From a virus: DNA of 33,687 bases. The number at the start of each line of letters is the position of its first letter. The first letter of the stretch is position 1. The DNA lies in IMG/VR virus record IMGVR_UViG_3300032291_001779, positions 1 through 33,687 of that record; one strand, given 5' to 3'. Positions 12,030 to 32,883 of this stretch are shown here, in pieces. Under the pieces are notes generated by a model. That model worked only from the letters and a program-made list of their open reading frames with translations, was not told the DNA's origin and did no database searches. A program made the translations under genes and the position numbers.

Positions 12030-13061
12030 ATGAGTTGGAACATTCAAAAACCAGGGGACTACATCAACGGACCGCTGACGGTGGTTGGTGCAGTTACGTT
12101 GAACAGTACTCTGACCGTTTCTGGCGTTTCGGTTTTCAATAATAACGTCGGAATTGGAATTGCCACGCCCAATGTAAACGCCAATCGCTCGACGTTAACC
12201 TTACAAGGTGCGTGGGGTGGTCAGTTGGACATCAATGTCGGCGCAACCAATCACGCACAGTTCGGAAGCGACAACTTTAATACCGGCATATCGTGCCGGA
12301 TTCAAAGTGCCGACGGAATCATATTTAGAACGAATGGCGGAGCAACCGAAGGAGGAAGGTTTACTACAACTGGCCAATTCGGAATTGGCGCAACTGCTTG
12401 GGGTGGTTTGCGTTTTGCTATTGGCAACACAAGCGACACCGGAGCCGCTACAAACGGGTTTGCTATATACTCAAACCGAGCGGCTCTTACTTTGTTCTGC
12501 AATGGTGCAACCGATGCCGCTGGAAGCACCTTGAATTACAGCTGGGCAAATGGTGGACAAGGCCCGTTCATCATCGCCAACGCTAGTGGAGAAGCTGCTC
12601 GTTTTAATTCGACGGGAACTTTTATTCTTAGCGGTGGAAATGCCGCAGCAAACGGACGCGGCGTCGCGTTCCCGGCCGCCCAGTCGGCTTCCACCGACGC
12701 CAACACGCTCGACGATTACGAGGAGGGGACTTGGACTCCAGTGGTTGCAGCAAGTTCTGGCACGGCAACGACAGTCACTATCGGGATTGCGAAATACACT
12801 AAAATCGGACGACAGGTAACTTGCTCGTTTGATTTTACGGTTGTTGACAAGGGAACTGCCAGTGGAAGCTTCATTTTCAGCCTTCCGTTTACCTCAGACA
12901 ACATTTTCAACTGCGGAGCATTCCGAGAAAATGGTTCTGTCGGAAACATGGGGCAGGTTTTCCGAAACTCAGCAAGTGATGTAGCCATGTTTTTGTACCA
13001 TAACATCACTGTTTGGGTAAATGGATACAGAATGCTGGGAACTTACACCTACTGCGTCTAA
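12030..13061 (+). CDS. Receptor-binding tail fibre candidate
   Basis: A 343-residue protein built of short beta strands rich in Gly, Asn, Thr and Ala. It opens with the MSWNIQKPGDYINGPLTVVGAVTL pattern in which each TL/TV pair starts a rung, continues with many NVGIG and GGRFTTTGQFGIG-type rungs, and has the LDDYEEGTWTPVV phrase at about residues 228-240 followed by a beta domain (IAKYTKIGRQVTCSFDF). The EEGTWTP segment is common near the C-terminus of fibre proteins from many environmental phages. Base composition is much lower in GC (about 43-48% in sampled lines) than its neighbours, and it has its own AGGAGG, both signs of module exchange. No chaperone or depolymerase motif is seen. Confidence 0.75.
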   Translation: MSWNIQKPGDYINGPLTVVGAVTLNSTLTVSGVSVFNNNVGIGIATPNVNANRSTLTLQGAWGGQLDINVGATNHAQFGSDNFNTGISCRIQSADGIIFRTNGGATEGGRFTTTGQFGIGATAWGGLRFAIGNTSDTGAATNGFAIYSNRAALTLFCNGATDAAGSTLNYSWANGGQGPFIIANASGEAARFNSTGTFILSGGNAAANGRGVAFPAAQSASTDANTLDDYEEGTWTPVVAASSGTATTVTIGIAKYTKIGRQVTCSFDFTVVDKGTASGSFIFSLPFTSDNIFNCGAFRENGSVGNMGQVFRNSASDVAMFLYHNITVWVNGYRMLGTYTYCV

Positions 13062-13065
13062 TAAT

Positions 13066-13326
13066 ATGCAACTCACTGAACGCTCTGTCGTCTCGCTTGT
13101 CGAGGTCACGCCAAACGGAACGGTCCAAGTCAGACTTTCCAACCAGATCGTGGATGGAGAGACGGTCAAAGCCGAGTCGTATCATCGTTATCTATTGCCT
13201 CCCGGCTCCGATCTCACCGGAGAGCCGGACAAGGTGGTCGCCATTGCCACCGCCGTCTGGACGCCCGAGGTGATTGCCGCCTACGAGGCACAGATCGCAG
13301 CCAACCAAAACCCCATCGGAGCCTGA
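13066..13326 (+). CDS. Small protein, first of a tandem paralogous pair
   Basis: ATG 13066 (five bases after the fibre stop) gives 86 residues. It has an N-terminal beta sheet-like part (SVVSLVEVTPNGTVQVRLSN), a short DGETVKAESYHRYLLPPGSDLTGEP region, and a C-terminal helix VVAIATAVWTPEVIAAYEA. The next gene repeats this layout, including a nearly identical WTPEVIAAY helix start. Small proteins of this type follow tail fibre genes in many phages and may be fibre-assembly helpers. No function is proven. Confidence 0.75.
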   Translation: MQLTERSVVSLVEVTPNGTVQVRLSNQIVDGETVKAESYHRYLLPPGSDLTGEPDKVVAIATAVWTPEVIAAYEAQIAANQNPIGA

Positions 13327-13329
13327 CCC

Positions 13330-13671
13330 ATGATCGAAACTAAGACCCTCTGTGCCGTCACCGTGCGACCCGATTGCAGCCTCCTAGTTCAAGAGACCAT
13401 CGCGTACTTCAAGGACGGAGTGCAGGTCTCCGTTGAGCCGGTGGGAACCTACGACCTTGCCCCGGGTGATTCGCTCGAAGGCAAACCGGCTGATGCTGTC
13501 CGAATTGCAAACGCGCTTTGGACTCCCGAGGTCATTGCAGCCTACGCCGCCGCGCATCCGATCCCAGAGCCCGAGGTCATCGTCGTCGATGAGCCTGTCG
13601 TTGATGCTTCGGTCTCGACAGAGTCAACCTCGGAGGTTGAAATCGTCACGGAGACTTCCTCCGAAAACTGA
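13330..13671 (+). CDS. Small protein, second of the tandem pair, with acidic tail
   Basis: A 113-residue protein homologous to the preceding one: VTVRPDCSLLVQETIAYFKDG, then GTYDLAPGDSLEGKPADAV and ALWTPEVIAAYAA. It differs by a 35-residue Glu/Val/Ser-rich C-terminal extension (residues about 79-113), likely disordered. The ATG is three bases after the upstream stop with the gaccc context. The duplicated arrangement next to the fibre suggests both act with it. I cannot tell whether they are virion parts or chaperones. Confidence 0.75.
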   Translation: MIETKTLCAVTVRPDCSLLVQETIAYFKDGVQVSVEPVGTYDLAPGDSLEGKPADAVRIANALWTPEVIAAYAAAHPIPEPEVIVVDEPVVDASVSTESTSEVEIVTETSSEN

Positions 13672-25338: not shown

Positions 25339-25763
25339 GCGAAGAAATCAACCGCATCGAGGAGCTTGCCGCGCTCATCCAAGCCGAGGTTCCGCGCCTC
25401 ATCGGGGAGGCTATCGAAGCAATCAACGAGTCAATCAACGTCGCGTTGGAGGAGGCCCAGGAGACCGAATCCGACGCACCGGCCAAACTTCGACTCGCGA
25501 TCACCGCGACGTGGAATCTCGAGACCAACACCGTCGAGGTATCCATGCCCGTGACCGTAAAGCGAAAGTTCACCCGGACCGTGAACCTACCGGATCACAA
25601 TCAGGAGGACTTGCCGTTTATCGTGGCAGAGGAAGATCGAGAAAAAGATCCGGTCTCACCTAAAATGGGCAAGGCCGTGCAAACCATGGTTGCTCGACTC
25701 AAAACTCAGGGTTTGACCATCCATGAAAACGTCAAACTTACCACGGGAGGAATCAATGAGTGA
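25335..25763 (+). CDS. Hypothetical acidic protein of the recombination module
   Basis: A 142-residue protein overlapping its upstream neighbour by four bases and the downstream nuclease by eight. The N-terminal half is acidic and helical (EELAALIQAEVPRLIGEAIE, then VALEEAQETESD). The middle is a beta pair (LRLAITATWNLETNTVEVSM, VTVKRKFTRTVNLPD), and a helix (KAVQTMVARLKTQGLT) ends the protein. No family is recognised. Its last codons include GGGAGG, which acts as ribosome binding site for the nuclease gene. Confidence 0.65.
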   Translation: MSEEINRIEELAALIQAEVPRLIGEAIEAINESINVALEEAQETESDAPAKLRLAITATWNLETNTVEVSMPVTVKRKFTRTVNLPDHNQEDLPFIVAEEDREKDPVSPKMGKAVQTMVARLKTQGLTIHENVKLTTGGINE

Positions 25764-26850
25764 CGAACGCCACGGACTGCCATCCGCATCATCCGCGCAT
25801 CGCTATGCGCTTTGCCCAGGCTCATTCCTTTTGGAGCAGTCGATTCAGGAGCCCGACGTGTCTGGCACCGACGCTCAGATTGGAAACCGCATCCACGCTC
25901 ACCTAGCCGGTGAAACGGTGGAACTCAACGAGGACGAGAAACGGTTGGCAATGAGTTCTCGGATTCAGGAAACCGACCTAGCCAAGGCTGTGTTCCCGTT
26001 CCAACACGGACTGCATTTTGTCCGCGAAAGGCGACTGTGGGGATACGACAACTGGTTTGCCAAAAGCTGGTCTGGCAAGCCTGACGTAGTCGTCCACGAC
26101 GGCAAAAAGGCCCTTGTGATCGACTACAAGACAGGCCGCGGTGACGTGACCCACGCGACCGGTAACTTGCAACTGCGGGCGCTGGCAGTTCTGGCAAACG
26201 AACACTTTGGGCCGTTTGAGGAAATCACCGTTGCAATCATTCAACCGCTGGCCGGTGAGCCGACAACTTGCACCTACACGGTCGCAGAGATCGAAAAAGC
26301 CACCAGTGAAACGCATGGACTAATGGAGCGGGTCAGAGTGCCCAACCAACCGCGCAACCCATCAACCGAGGGATGCAAATATTGCAAGGCCAAGGAGGTC
26401 TGCCCGGAAGCCCAAGGCATTGTTCAGAAACTGCCCGCGCTCGTTCCGCGGGACGGTCTCGAGATCGTCATGACTCCCGAGCAGATCGCCGAGTTCCTCG
26501 CGGTCGCTCCGCTGGCCGAGGCAGTGATCGAAGCCGTCCGTGGCAAGGCCCGCCGCATGATCGAAGCCGGGCAGACGGTTCCGGGGTGGAAACTCAAGCC
26601 CGGGGCGATCCGCGAAAGCATCACCAACCCGGAACTTGCTTTCTCCCGGTTCATGGACTCGGGCGGCACTCAGGCCCAGTTCGTTCAGGCCATCACCGTG
26701 GCCAAGACCAAGTTCAAGGACGCGGTCAAGACTGCCACCGGGCGAAAGGGCCGAGACCTCGACGGGTTCGTAGAAATCATGCTTGAGGGCTGCACCGAGG
26801 CCAAGGTCACCGCCCCGTCGCTTGTCCAGGACAAGGAGGTGGCAAAGTGA
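25756..26850 (+). CDS. PD-(D/E)XK nuclease, Cas4/RecB-like (DUF2800 type) with Fe-S cysteines
   Basis: ATG 25756 is chosen over an in-frame ATG 33 bases upstream because GGGAGG (25745-25750) sits five bases before it and the protein then starts SDERHGLPSASSAHRYALCPGS. The 364-residue product has the nuclease motifs in order: His 47 (GNRIHAHL), Asp 110 (SGKPDVVV), Asp 123-Tyr-Lys 125 (VIDYKTG), Gln 139 (NLQL). Cys 20 together with Cys 207, 210 and 216 (GCKYCKAKEVC) is the four-cysteine iron-sulphur set of AddB/Cas4 nucleases. Such enzymes resect double-strand ends to provide 3' tails for the annealing protein encoded upstream. The C-terminal 130 residues are helical and may bind DNA. Confidence 0.88.
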   Translation: MSDERHGLPSASSAHRYALCPGSFLLEQSIQEPDVSGTDAQIGNRIHAHLAGETVELNEDEKRLAMSSRIQETDLAKAVFPFQHGLHFVRERRLWGYDNWFAKSWSGKPDVVVHDGKKALVIDYKTGRGDVTHATGNLQLRALAVLANEHFGPFEEITVAIIQPLAGEPTTCTYTVAEIEKATSETHGLMERVRVPNQPRNPSTEGCKYCKAKEVCPEAQGIVQKLPALVPRDGLEIVMTPEQIAEFLAVAPLAEAVIEAVRGKARRMIEAGQTVPGWKLKPGAIRESITNPELAFSRFMDSGGTQAQFVQAITVAKTKFKDAVKTATGRKGRDLDGFVEIMLEGCTEAKVTAPSLVQDKEVAK

Positions 26851-27299
26851 CCCCAATCATGGAACCAGAAGACGCTCACCCGATGGAGTTCGTCCGGGAG
26901 TTCATGCGTCGGTTTGGGCAACTGACGCCGGCCACGCTCGGGCTGCCGCATCCAGTAACGCAGAACTTGCGCTATCGGCTCATCGACGAGGAAGCCCAGG
27001 AACTGCGGGACGCGACCAACTTGATCGAGTACCTCGACGCCGTCGGTGACTTGCTCTACGTGGTTTACGGGGCCGCAATCGCCGCAGGGTTCACTGCCCA
27101 GCAAATTGAGGCCACGGTCTACGAGATCCACCGGAGCAATATGTCAAAGCTGTGGAGCGCCGACGAGATCGACAGCATCCCGGCAGACTGCCGAGCCAGC
27201 AACGTCGGGAACGGGCGCTACATCGTCCGACGCAACGACGGGAAGATCATCAAGAGCCCGACTTACAGTCCGGCCAACCTCCAACCCATCATCGAATGA
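26847..27299 (+). CDS. MazG/PRA-PH-like nucleotide pyrophosphohydrolase
   Basis: A 150-residue protein starting at GTG 26847 (GTGA overlap). It has the all-alpha NTP-PPase signature: a first acidic helix with RLIDEEAQELRDA (Glu 48, 49, 52) and a second with YLDAVGDLLYVVYGAAIAAG (Asp 64, Asp 68), the E-x-x-E...D-x-x-D metal site. The C-terminal KSPTYSPANLQPII is common in phage members. These enzymes hydrolyse dNTPs or phosphoribosyl-ATP-like substrates to a monophosphate and pyrophosphate. In phages they may clear non-canonical or alarmone nucleotides. A link to DNA modification is possible but not shown. Confidence 0.8.
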   Translation: MTPIMEPEDAHPMEFVREFMRRFGQLTPATLGLPHPVTQNLRYRLIDEEAQELRDATNLIEYLDAVGDLLYVVYGAAIAAGFTAQQIEATVYEIHRSNMSKLWSADEIDSIPADCRASNVGNGRYIVRRNDGKIIKSPTYSPANLQPIIE

Positions 27300-27634
27300 G
27301 AAGCCTCAGAGGTGGCGGGTTCGCCAAAATACTCCACGCCGCAGAGATTCACACTGCCGACTCCGGCAACCCGGTGATGCTCCTGACGGTAGAGTTCGAG
27401 ACACGGACACTGGCCAAGGGGGCGCTCTACGCCCAGCGGGTCCAGTTCCGATCCTTCGCCCAGGAGGACCACGCGCTGGTGGACAAACTCAAGGTCGGAA
27501 CATTCATCGCATTCGACGGGGACTGTGACGCCGTGAGCGAGAAGAGCCAAACGGGCTGGTGGTACGCCAACCCTCGGGTGACCGGCCGCATCCTCAGCAT
27601 CATCGAAACCGAACCCGGGAGGCACGGTGAGTGA
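27296..27634 (+). CDS. Possible OB-fold (SSB-like) small protein
   Basis: ATG 27296 (ATGA overlap) gives 112 residues. Strand-rich: FAKILHAAEIHTADSGNPVM, LLTVEFETR, QRVQFRSFAQED, KLKVGTFIAFDGDC and RVTGRILSI. The order of strands and the VGTFIAFDGD turn resemble phage OB-fold or SSB-type proteins, and its place between nuclease and RusA resolvase fits a single-strand-binding role. There is no acidic C-terminal tip, unlike the SSB-like protein at 32880. The call is tentative. Confidence 0.5.
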   Translation: MRSLRGGGFAKILHAAEIHTADSGNPVMLLTVEFETRTLAKGALYAQRVQFRSFAQEDHALVDKLKVGTFIAFDGDCDAVSEKSQTGWWYANPRVTGRILSIIETEPGRHGE

Positions 27635-28097
27635 CATCCTCCAGTTTCTTGTCGTTGGCCATCCCAAGGCCCAACCGAGAGTCAAGGCCTTCAAGCGGGG
27701 CAACCACGCGGGTGTCTACGATCCAGGCACGGCAGACGGCTGGAAGCTCGCCGTTGGGGCCACCGCCAAGGCAAGCTGGAACCAAGTGCAGTTCTCCGGG
27801 CCGCTACGCCTTGTTCTTGGGTTTTTTATGCCGAGGCCCAAGGCGCACTTCAACCGACACGGAGACCCAAAACCCGGGGCTCCAGTGTGGCACGAATCCA
27901 AGCCTGACACCGACAACCTTGCCAAGGCCGTGATGGACGCGCTGACCCAGTTGCAAGTCTGGCGCGACGACTCCCAGGTCGTCCAACTGGAGGTTTCCAA
28001 AGCCTACGGAGCCCGAGCGGGCTGCATCGTAATCCTCGGGCCGGCATCATCGCCCGATCCGTTGCTGCGCCTCGACATGGGGCGCTTCATCGACTGA
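27627..28097 (+). CDS. rusA: RusA-type Holliday junction resolvase
   Basis: A 156-residue protein starting at GTG 27627, which overlaps the upstream gene by eight bases. The RusA signature is clear: an N-terminal strand (LQFLVVGHPKAQPR), RLVLGFFMPRPKAHF, and the catalytic block SKPDTDNLAKAVMDAL with Asp 94 and Asp 96, followed by VWRDDSQVVQL (Asp 114/115). RusA dimers cut four-way junctions produced by recombination and replication, giving linear concatemers suitable for packaging. Length is somewhat above E. coli RusA (120). It ends the recombination operon; the next 132 bases are intergenic. Confidence 0.88.
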   Translation: MSDILQFLVVGHPKAQPRVKAFKRGNHAGVYDPGTADGWKLAVGATAKASWNQVQFSGPLRLVLGFFMPRPKAHFNRHGDPKPGAPVWHESKPDTDNLAKAVMDALTQLQVWRDDSQVVQLEVSKAYGARAGCIVILGPASSPDPLLRLDMGRFID

Positions 28098-31402: not shown

Positions 31403-32128
31403 ATGAGAATCCGAACTATCAAACCGGAGTTCTTCACGCACGAAGGACTCTTTGAGGCGGAGCAGGAAACAAAGTTACCCATCCGAATCGCATTCGCTGG
31501 ACTGTGGTGCGTTGCAGACCGAGAAGGCCGATTCAAATGGGAGCCACGACGCATCGGGGTGCAGATTCTTCCTTACGACGCCATCGACTTTTCACGCGTG
31601 CTTCACGCGTTGACCACGCGTGGTTTCATTGTGAAGTACCGCGTGAACGACGCGTGGTTTGGATTCATTCCAAGCTTTTCAAAGCACCAAGTCATCAACA
31701 ACCGAGAATCCGACTCAGTTTTACCAGGGTTTGAGGAAAACACGGCAATTACCGAGGAAATCGACGCGTCAGGCACGCGTGAGGCACGCGACGACCACGC
31801 GGGTCAAGGGGAAGGGAAGGGAAGGGAAGGGAATAAGGAAGGGAAAGGAAAGGAAGGAGATGGCGCATCCGCGCCACGCGTCCGCTTTGTTCCTCCAACC
31901 CGCGAGGAGTTGAACCTTGAAGCTGCGAAGATTGGACTCCCAGGCACCGAGGTGGACAAGTTTGTGGCCTATTACGCCTCAAACGGGTGGAGGGTCGGCA
32001 AGGTTCCAATGAAGTCATGGCCCCATGCGTTGACCGGCTGGGCCTCCCGATGGCGTGAACGGTCCCAAAGCCTCAGCCTCGGGGACAACCGCTACCAAAC
32101 CGCAACCGCAGACGACGCCGCATTCTGA
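31403..32128 (+). CDS. Replication initiator, O-like
   Basis: ATG 31403 gives 241 residues beginning MRIRTIKPEFFTHEGLFEAE, a very typical opening of phage replication proteins with an N-terminal winged helix (to about 100: FAGLWCVADREGRFKWEPRR, then FSRVLHALTTRGFIVKY). Residues about 120-160 are a low-complexity Gly/Glu/Lys linker. The C-terminal part (about 168-225) resembles a DnaD-like or helicase-loader contact domain (LEAAKIGLPGTEVDKFVAYY, WPHALTGWASRW). Like lambda O it should bind origin repeats and recruit the helicase via the ATPase encoded next. The gene itself contains an array of 11-bp-spaced ACGCGT boxes, the probable origin. Confidence 0.82.
   Translation: MRIRTIKPEFFTHEGLFEAEQETKLPIRIAFAGLWCVADREGRFKWEPRRIGVQILPYDAIDFSRVLHALTTRGFIVKYRVNDAWFGFIPSFSKHQVINNRESDSVLPGFEENTAITEEIDASGTREARDDHAGQGEGKGREGNKEGKGKEGDGASAPRVRFVPPTREELNLEAAKIGLPGTEVDKFVAYYASNGWRVGKVPMKSWPHALTGWASRWRERSQSLSLGDNRYQTATADDAAF
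31594..31881 (+). repeat. ACGCGT iteron array, candidate replication origin
   Basis: ACGCGT occurs at 31594, 31605, 31616, 31650, 31764, 31775 and 31876, with near matches at 31639 (CCGCGT), 31786 (ACGCGA) and 31797 (ACGCGG). Steps inside the groups 31594-31605-31616, 31639-31650 and 31764-31775-31786-31797 are all exactly 11 bases, one helical turn. Several copies have longer dyads (ACCACGCGTGGT at 31613-31624, CACGCGTG at 31593 and 31774). Eleven is not a multiple of three, so the repeats fall in different codon phases and are not a by-product of protein repeats. Elsewhere I saw only scattered single copies (4786, 7860, 17929). The location inside the initiator gene parallels the lambda origin. 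Confidence 0.75.
31806..31860 (+). repeat. Polypurine (GGGAA)n tract beside the iterons
   Basis: Fifty-five bases with a single T (31834) are otherwise all purines, with period five in the first half (GGGAA units) and AAGG/GGAAA variants later. It encodes the Gly/Glu/Lys linker of the initiator. Such mirror-like purine tracts can form triplex or unwound DNA and may act as the melting part of the origin, in the place of the AT-rich tract of lambda. It may also simply be a slippage-grown linker. Confidence 0.6.
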
Positions 32129-32130
32129 CC

Positions 32131-32883
32131 ATGGAGACCACCGACGACATCGAGCGGGTGCCTTCGACCTGCCAGAATTGCCTCAAGGACTTCGGAGCCG
32201 CCGTGATGCGGTCACCATTCAACCCGGGCAAGGTGCTGTTCCAAGCCCGGTACTGCGACCCGTGCATCATCAACCGCCAAGCCATCGAGCGTGAAAAGGC
32301 GTGGGAGCAAAACCAATCCGAACGCCAAAGGGCTCGCCGTGAAGCTTGGGAGGCCCTTTGCCCGATGGAGTTCCGCACAACCGAGGAAGGGGGCCGAACC
32401 GACGTTGGGAGGCTCCTAGGCGAGTTTCCGATCCTCCAACAGGTCATCCAGCACGACCTACCAAGCCAAGGGCTCATCGTCCGGGGCAAGTCCGGGCACG
32501 GCAAGACCCGGGCAGTGTGGCGACTCCTTCGCCGGTCGTTCGTGGACGGCAAACGAATCCGGGCCATGGCATCCGGTGAGTTCGACCGCCAAGCCCGAGA
32601 CGCAGGTGGCAAGTTCACCCTCACCGAGTTCGTGGACCGGCTCATCGAGGCCGACGTGCTTTTCCTCGACGACCTAGGCAAAGCGCCCTGGACGCCGGCC
32701 ACCGTGGGCATCTGGTTCGACGTTCTGGATGGACGCTACCGGCACGGCCGCCCCATTGTAGTCACAACCAACCTCGACGGGGCAGCCCTCGTCAAACAAC
32801 TCCGCATCGGACCCGACATCGGTGAGCCGATGCTCCGAAGAATGAGAGAAACAACCCGCCAAATCGTAGTCAAAACACCATGA
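32131..32883 (+). CDS. DnaC-like AAA+ ATPase, helicase loader
   Basis: A 250-residue protein two bases after the initiator. An N-terminal zinc ribbon (CQNC at 14-17, CDPC at 42-45) and a charged helix (50-75) precede the AAA+ core: Walker A GKSGHGKT (119-126), Walker B VLFLDD (176-181), a sensor-1-like VVTTNLDG (about 210-217) and an arginine-rich end (LRRMRETTRQIVV). This is the layout of phage DnaC/IstB-type loaders that deliver the host DnaB helicase to the origin together with the O-like initiator (lambda P supplies this job by another fold). No helicase or primase gene is seen in the window, so the phage probably uses the host's. Confidence 0.85.
   Translation: METTDDIERVPSTCQNCLKDFGAAVMRSPFNPGKVLFQARYCDPCIINRQAIEREKAWEQNQSERQRARREAWEALCPMEFRTTEEGGRTDVGRLLGEFPILQQVIQHDLPSQGLIVRGKSGHGKTRAVWRLLRRSFVDGKRIRAMASGEFDRQARDAGGKFTLTEFVDRLIEADVLFLDDLGKAPWTPATVGIWFDVLDGRYRHGRPIVVTTNLDGAALVKQLRIGPDIGEPMLRRMRETTRQIVVKTP

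Follow-up and report, generated by a model that had tools for sequence, protein, structure and literature searches.

The window analysed here, which is the whole 33,687-nucleotide stretch of an IMG/VR viral contig, carries a gene for a replication initiator with an array of ACGCGT boxes inside its coding sequence, followed by the gene for a DnaC-like helicase loader (table 1). DnaC/DnaB-type genes are also found near the initiator gene in several relatives. The assignment of the initiator to PHROG 16167 stems from a profile match over the N-terminal domain, as does a further match with PHROG 1408 (E 1.7e-23). Three parts can be distinguished in the protein, namely an N-terminal winged-helix-like domain (residues approx. 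1-100), a disordered linker (approx. 121-156) and a C-terminal helical domain (approx. 167-226). A sequence search for relatives of solved structure found none. In the AlphaFold2 model (pLDDT 80), the N-terminal domain is confidently predicted to consist of helices and a two-strand wing, with the helix of residues 63-72 being the presumed recognition helix on the basis of its position in the fold. Foldseek comparison with the PDB returned mostly winged-helix regulators, with weak scores (best E 0.055), and the structure matches among viral models included proteins named replisome organizer, with E values down to 7e-10.

Upstream of the initiator gene, the region 25723-28097 of the window encodes a PD-(D/E)XK/DUF2800 exonuclease, a PRA-PH-like protein and a RusA resolvase. 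Farther away, the adjacent ORFs at 13021-13326 and 13330-13671 have the motif WTPEVIAAY in common and look like tandem duplicates.

Table 1. Features of the initiator locus, with positions counted along the window.
Feature	Position	Strand	Details
Replication initiator gene	31403..32128	+	241 aa; PHROG 16167 replication initiation protein, E 3.2e-41
DnaC-like helicase loader gene	32131..32883	+	PHROG 50, E 2e-21; IstB/AAA PF01695; lambda P-like position
ACGCGT boxes, exact	31594, 31605, 31616, 31650, 31764, 31775, 31876		
One-base variants	31639, 31786, 31797		CCGCGT, ACGCGA and ACGCGG, respectively
Iteron cluster A1	31594..31621		ACGCGT-N5-ACGCGT-N5-ACGCGT; codons 64-73, encoding the predicted recognition helix (aa 63-72)
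Iteron cluster A2	31639..31655		CCGCGT and ACGCGT at an 11-bp step
Candidate melting region	31662..31751		between the clusters; lowest stability of any 90-bp segment in the gene
Iteron cluster B	31764..31802		ACGCGT, ACGCGT, ACGCGA, ACGCGG; 11-bp steps; linker codons
GGGAA-type tandem tract	31808..31862	+	near-pure purine; adjoins cluster B on its 3' side; second candidate element for melting/loading
Lone ACGCGT box	31876..31881		3' of the purine tract; found in part of the relatives

The ACGCGT array and the elements around it

The presence of seven ACGCGT boxes and three one-base variants between positions 31594 and 31881 had been proposed from the sequence-only reading, together with exact 11-bp spacing inside three subgroups, and both statements were confirmed by the box coordinates. 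The step is exactly 11 bp throughout clusters A1 (31594/31605/31616), A2 (31639/31650) and B (31764/31775/31786/31797), and the box at 31876 is single. The codon phases of the ten boxes, in order, are 2, 1, 0, 2, 1, 1, 0, 2, 1 and 2, so that all three phases are used, again as had been stated. When one helical period was sought for all ten boxes no good fit was obtained, strict phasing being found only within groups.

Over the whole 33.7-kb contig there is no overall excess of the word, with 10 ACGCGT found and 12 expected from dinucleotide shuffles. Seven of the 10 fall, however, within 288 bp, for which the same shuffles predict approximately 0.1, in line with the earlier estimate of far less than one, and the contig contains no second cluster. 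Synonymous recoding of the gene leads to a mean of 1.5 boxes when its own codons are used and of 0.67 with the phage codon usage, and with neither null did a single one of 20,000 recodings give as many as seven boxes or as many as three pairs spaced by 11 bp.

Two elements of the gene are candidates for the site of melting. By nearest-neighbour calculations, the region between the clusters (31662-31751) ranks at the 0.29 percentile for stability within the contig, and in relatives the weakness of the inter-cluster DNA is a weak trend (mean z 0.85, positive in 18 of 24). The other element is the GGGAA tract, which, like cluster B, lies within the linker codons and is 98% purine between 31808 and 31852. 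In all 24 testable genes the purine tract starts less than 60 nt past the last cluster B box, and the purine fraction of the tract is 0.97 versus 0.90 in synonymous shuffles.

Occurrence of the array among relatives and across IMG/VR

Part of the collected loci (L100-L216) came from a DNA-pattern search and, therefore, only loci selected by protein similarity entered the frequencies. In 79 of 80 viral loci of the protein-similarity set, down to 57% identity, the gene contains five or more ACGCGT, so that the boxes are retained in nearly all close relatives; the sole exception (L073) has a different N-terminal domain. Offsets 191, 202 and 213, corresponding to cluster A1, are occupied in nearly all of the 80 loci, a cluster A2 box is found at offset 247 or 235 in many relatives and is missing from others, and the offset of cluster B shifts with codon insertions while the 11-bp step is retained. 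Three boxes or more, together with two or more pairs spaced by 11 or 22 bp, were found in 95 of 116 protein-selected loci. In 100 distinct protein-selected genes, 246 pairs of neighbouring boxes are separated by exactly 11 bp and 38 by 22 bp, in three codon phases.

Synonymous variation at third codon positions was compared in 32 non-redundant relatives; it is zero inside the tested boxes, those of cluster A1, whereas outside the boxes the normalised entropy averages 0.61 (p 7e-5). The earlier claim that selection acts on the boxes as DNA is thus borne out both by this absence of synonymous change among orthologues and by the failure of the synonymous nulls. The recorded sources of box carriers include Vibrio, Bradyrhizobium and Endozoicomonas. 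The array is absent from some relatives, such as L239. HNH-endonuclease-like sequence is found in the interdomain linker, the usual place of cluster B, in two initiator genes, with motifs CVHCG...TIDHIHPFS (L239:2001-3014) and CLKCG...TIDHIVPLSKGGDN (L090:1995-3074).

Confinement of the boxes to the initiator genes is evident from the count in non-redundant loci, with 153 boxes in the genes (6.5 expected) and 5 in 113 kb of flanking DNA (27 expected). An avoidance specific for ACGCGT in the flanks was ruled out, other palindromes being equally rare and ACGCGT ranking 5 of 64. In the flanks of 25 related loci, ACTAGT, GCATGC, GGGCCC and TGTACA are 5-8 fold below the dinucleotide expectation, as if driven by restriction.

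A scan of IMG/VR for ACGCGT-N5-ACGCGT-N5-ACGCGT, carried out without reference to any protein, returned at least 120 stretches, and, among the matches listed, 142 of 162 triple arrays are within an ORF of the initiator family of the window. With AGCGCT, a control word of identical base composition, in the same design, 5 stretches were found and none in the initiator family. ACGCGT at 10-bp steps was detected in 15 stretches, with 12 of 18 matches in the initiator family; these arrays (L372-L384) belong mostly to the window initiator family. Several of the remaining array matches are in genes for other phage replication, initiator or primosomal proteins. Thus, dense ACGCGT clusters, which are found nowhere else in the contig, are almost confined to initiator genes across IMG/VR. 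Arrays at 11 bp were also seen in coding sequences outside the profile of the window family, namely those of L123, L197 and L103 (PHROG 9474-type) and of L135 and L183 (primosomal/YdaU-like, DUF1376-like).

An initiator of the window family is also encoded on two circular plasmid records that contain phage genes, one from Bradyrhizobium (46.6 kb) and the other from Endozoicomonas (54.2 kb). In the former, 7 of 10 ACGCGT are inside the initiator gene and 3 elsewhere (40 kb stretch); in the latter, all 5 are inside the gene and none elsewhere (32 kb stretch). Genes for capsid, portal or terminase proteins are present on both records (NZ_CP094518.1 and NZ_CP103299.1; L390 and L391), which resemble phage-plasmids or excised prophages.

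The boxes follow the N-terminal domain of the initiator. The C-terminal domain of the window protein is found behind other N-termini in L217, L218 and L219 (90-93% identical), in L221 and L222 (65%) and, in a more distant form, in L223, and none of these six initiator genes contains ACGCGT. All seven boxes are instead present in L220, which has an N-terminus of the window type, and many loci match the window over the N-terminal 147-160 residues only and still have the boxes. Since the boxes track the type of N-terminus rather than that of the C-terminus, they go with the DNA-binding domain. In L218, GCAATGCT repeats at 11-bp steps were read by eye. The recognition-helix residues SRVLDALTTRG were considered as the reader of the boxes and set aside, given that ACGCGT arrays are also present in the FTSEDI subclass, which lacks them; these residues may instead be fixed by the DNA.

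A putative replication origin and its alternatives

From these comparisons of sequences, the region 31594-31881 is very probably a phage replication origin located inside the initiator gene and bound by the winged-helix initiator that the gene encodes. The proposal of an in-gene origin, already part of the sequence-only reading, finds support in the conservation of the boxes, in the lack of any other cluster in the contig and in the near restriction of the arrays to initiator genes. GC skew has no turning point at the site and is uninformative.

In the mechanism that we infer, the N-terminal winged-helix domain would bind the ACGCGT boxes, and their one-turn spacing would place neighbouring initiators on one side of the double helix, leading to cooperative loading on clusters A and B. 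This assembly would strain and open the weak inter-cluster DNA and/or the adjacent GGGAA purine tract, and the C-terminal domain, with the DnaC-like loader from the adjoining gene, would deliver the host DnaB helicase. The steps following site recognition are modelled on those of lambda and SPP1.

Initiators often autoregulate their own genes, and protein-binding boxes by themselves are no proof of origin function. The array might consist of operators for transcriptional or translational control of the initiator gene, exerted by its own product or by a different phage regulator. That the boxes serve as operators and not as an origin is unlikely by taking into account that they lie 190-480 bp into the coding region and hardly occur in the flanking DNA with its promoters (5 in 113 kb), and that the tandem tract and the helicase-loader gene fit an origin. 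Autoregulation could be a second role of the same boxes. The occurrence of the same ACGCGT array in the PHROG 9474 type and in the primosomal YdaU/DUF1376-like initiator families would find an explanation in a shared factor, so that a conserved host protein, rather than the initiator, might bind the boxes and aid or restrain replication. Such a role of a host factor appears quite improbable, as the word differs between clades of one initiator family and tracks the N-terminal domain, and as the carriers come from Vibrio, Bradyrhizobium and Endozoicomonas, among others.

The plasmid centromere-binding winged-helix proteins AspA, pNOB8 and TubR are among the weak Foldseek matches, which would suit a centromere-like partition site with one-turn repeats, and domain exchange did take place at the linker, as would be expected if the repeats were a linker promoting recombination between exchangeable domains. 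Against these two possibilities stand the gene context, made of an initiator and a helicase loader, the integrase gene on the record of the Bradyrhizobium member and the location of cluster A inside the conserved DNA-binding domain, away from the exchange point; taken together, they are very unlikely. It is extremely improbable that the boxes are a by-product of protein coding, due to conserved residues or to low-complexity linker codons. Although SRVLDALTTRG is well conserved in the protein and the linker is of low complexity, the 11-bp repeat falls in all three reading frames, the word is kept in the variable linker, no synonymous change is found at the third positions of the boxes and the outcome of the recodings (0/20,000) points in the same direction.

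Other clades and known systems

Related initiators without ACGCGT appear mostly to have other words at 10-11-bp steps in the same places, those of actinophages included, several of the repeat words beyond the ACGCGT clade having been read by eye. In the MARARN clade (75 loci) there is no ACGCGT, and repeated 6-mers are enriched at lags 11, 22 and 43-44, with an additional enrichment at lag 7 that comes from a CTGATTC tract. In the FWESESL clade, the enrichment of 6-mers is at lags 10 and 20 (TCGCGA) and 7 (GGGAACA). L242, as judged by eye, appears to have ACATGC/GCATGC at both places occupied by ACGCGT in the window, at roughly one-turn steps. In the Mycobacterium prophage prophiGD102-1, GATTTTGCGCG-like units are found at offsets 191 and 202, and they recur near 377. 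This prophage, mycobacteriophage Charlie, Gordonia phage Attis and Fishburne have arrays of TTGCGC, TGCGCC and TCGCGA (lag-11 P <=0.005), followed by an 8-bp GGGGAACA-type tract. The 11-bp signal is not significant in the distant members ReT1v-1 and Tyrion; by taking into account also the missing array of L239, the arrangement is therefore not universal.

Between proteobacterial and actinobacterial phages the word changes, but the phasing and the location of the repeats appear to be mostly retained, which suggests that reader and site travel together. The broader proposal, to which we assign an even chance of being correct, is that of a widespread and hitherto undescribed type of origin in tailed phages, in which one-turn iterons would lie in the recognition-helix and linker codons of winged-helix initiators and be followed by a tandem tract of 5-8 bp units, either G/A-rich or CTGATTC. 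The words (ACGCGT, TCGCGA, TTGCGC, TGCGCC, TGCAAG and ACATGC) would be rewritten in each clade, with reader and site forming one cassette, in what would be a natural initiator-iteron code. If so, the origin could be predicted from sequence for many phages for which no described origin was found, the paired sets of initiators and sites with changed words would make the recognition code directly testable, the lack of separation by recombination of the DNA-binding domain from the origin, despite exchange of the C-terminal domain, would be explained, and compact replicons might be obtained for hosts with few genetic tools.

Lambda O is made of an N-terminal DNA-binding part and a C-terminal part that binds the partner. 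In lambda and the Stx lambdoid phages, the iterons and the melting region are within the initiator gene and the P gene is next to it (PMC7466680), so that the precedent invoked by the sequence-only reading, the presence of the origin iterons of lambda inside the O gene, holds. The window is similar in that the repeats are inside the gene for the initiator, their putative binding protein, and the helicase-loader gene is next. It differs in several respects. The protein has no match with PF04492, which lambda O matches with E 6e-36, or with any other Pfam family, and hhalign gives a probability of 0.2% between the two proteins. The lambda iterons are 18 bp long and 20-24 bp apart (lambda record), whereas those of the window are 6-bp palindromes at 11 bp, and, unlike in lambda, there are two clusters, one of which is inside the codons of the DNA-binding domain, plus the GGGAA purine tract. 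The window system would thus work like lambda O/ori and is outside that family.

In-gene repeats are also known for SPP1, in which the replisome organizer G38P binds direct repeats of oriL inside its own gene, with an AT-rich unwinding element, and a second origin, oriR, is approximately 13 kb away (PMC6316719). The window resembles oriL, by its published description, in having the repeats inside the gene for a replisome organizer, and repeats were noted inside an O-like gene in phage MD8 (PMC8508860). Thus, of the earlier suggestion of a distinct initiator/origin class, the part concerning the protein and the iterons, both unlike those of lambda, stands, and novelty of the in-gene location does not, given lambda and SPP1. 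Profile matches place the window protein in the PHROG replication initiation/replisome organizer families (16167, 1408 and 2149), and its fold matches replisome organizers. In the literature searched, which covered few subscription journals, no description was found of cis sites for these three families, or of the ACGCGT array, the repeats or the start motif of the protein. In-gene placement of iterons is already known; what is added here is the in-gene array for the PHROG initiator families. For mycobacteriophage RepA, the origin was inferred by the authors to be in or beside repA, and no repeats were identified (PMC7157519). The likeness of the window system to RepA, tested there with Miko, Rachaly and Jeeves, is through the RepA-like annotation of prophiGD102-1 and its two-cluster 11-bp layout.
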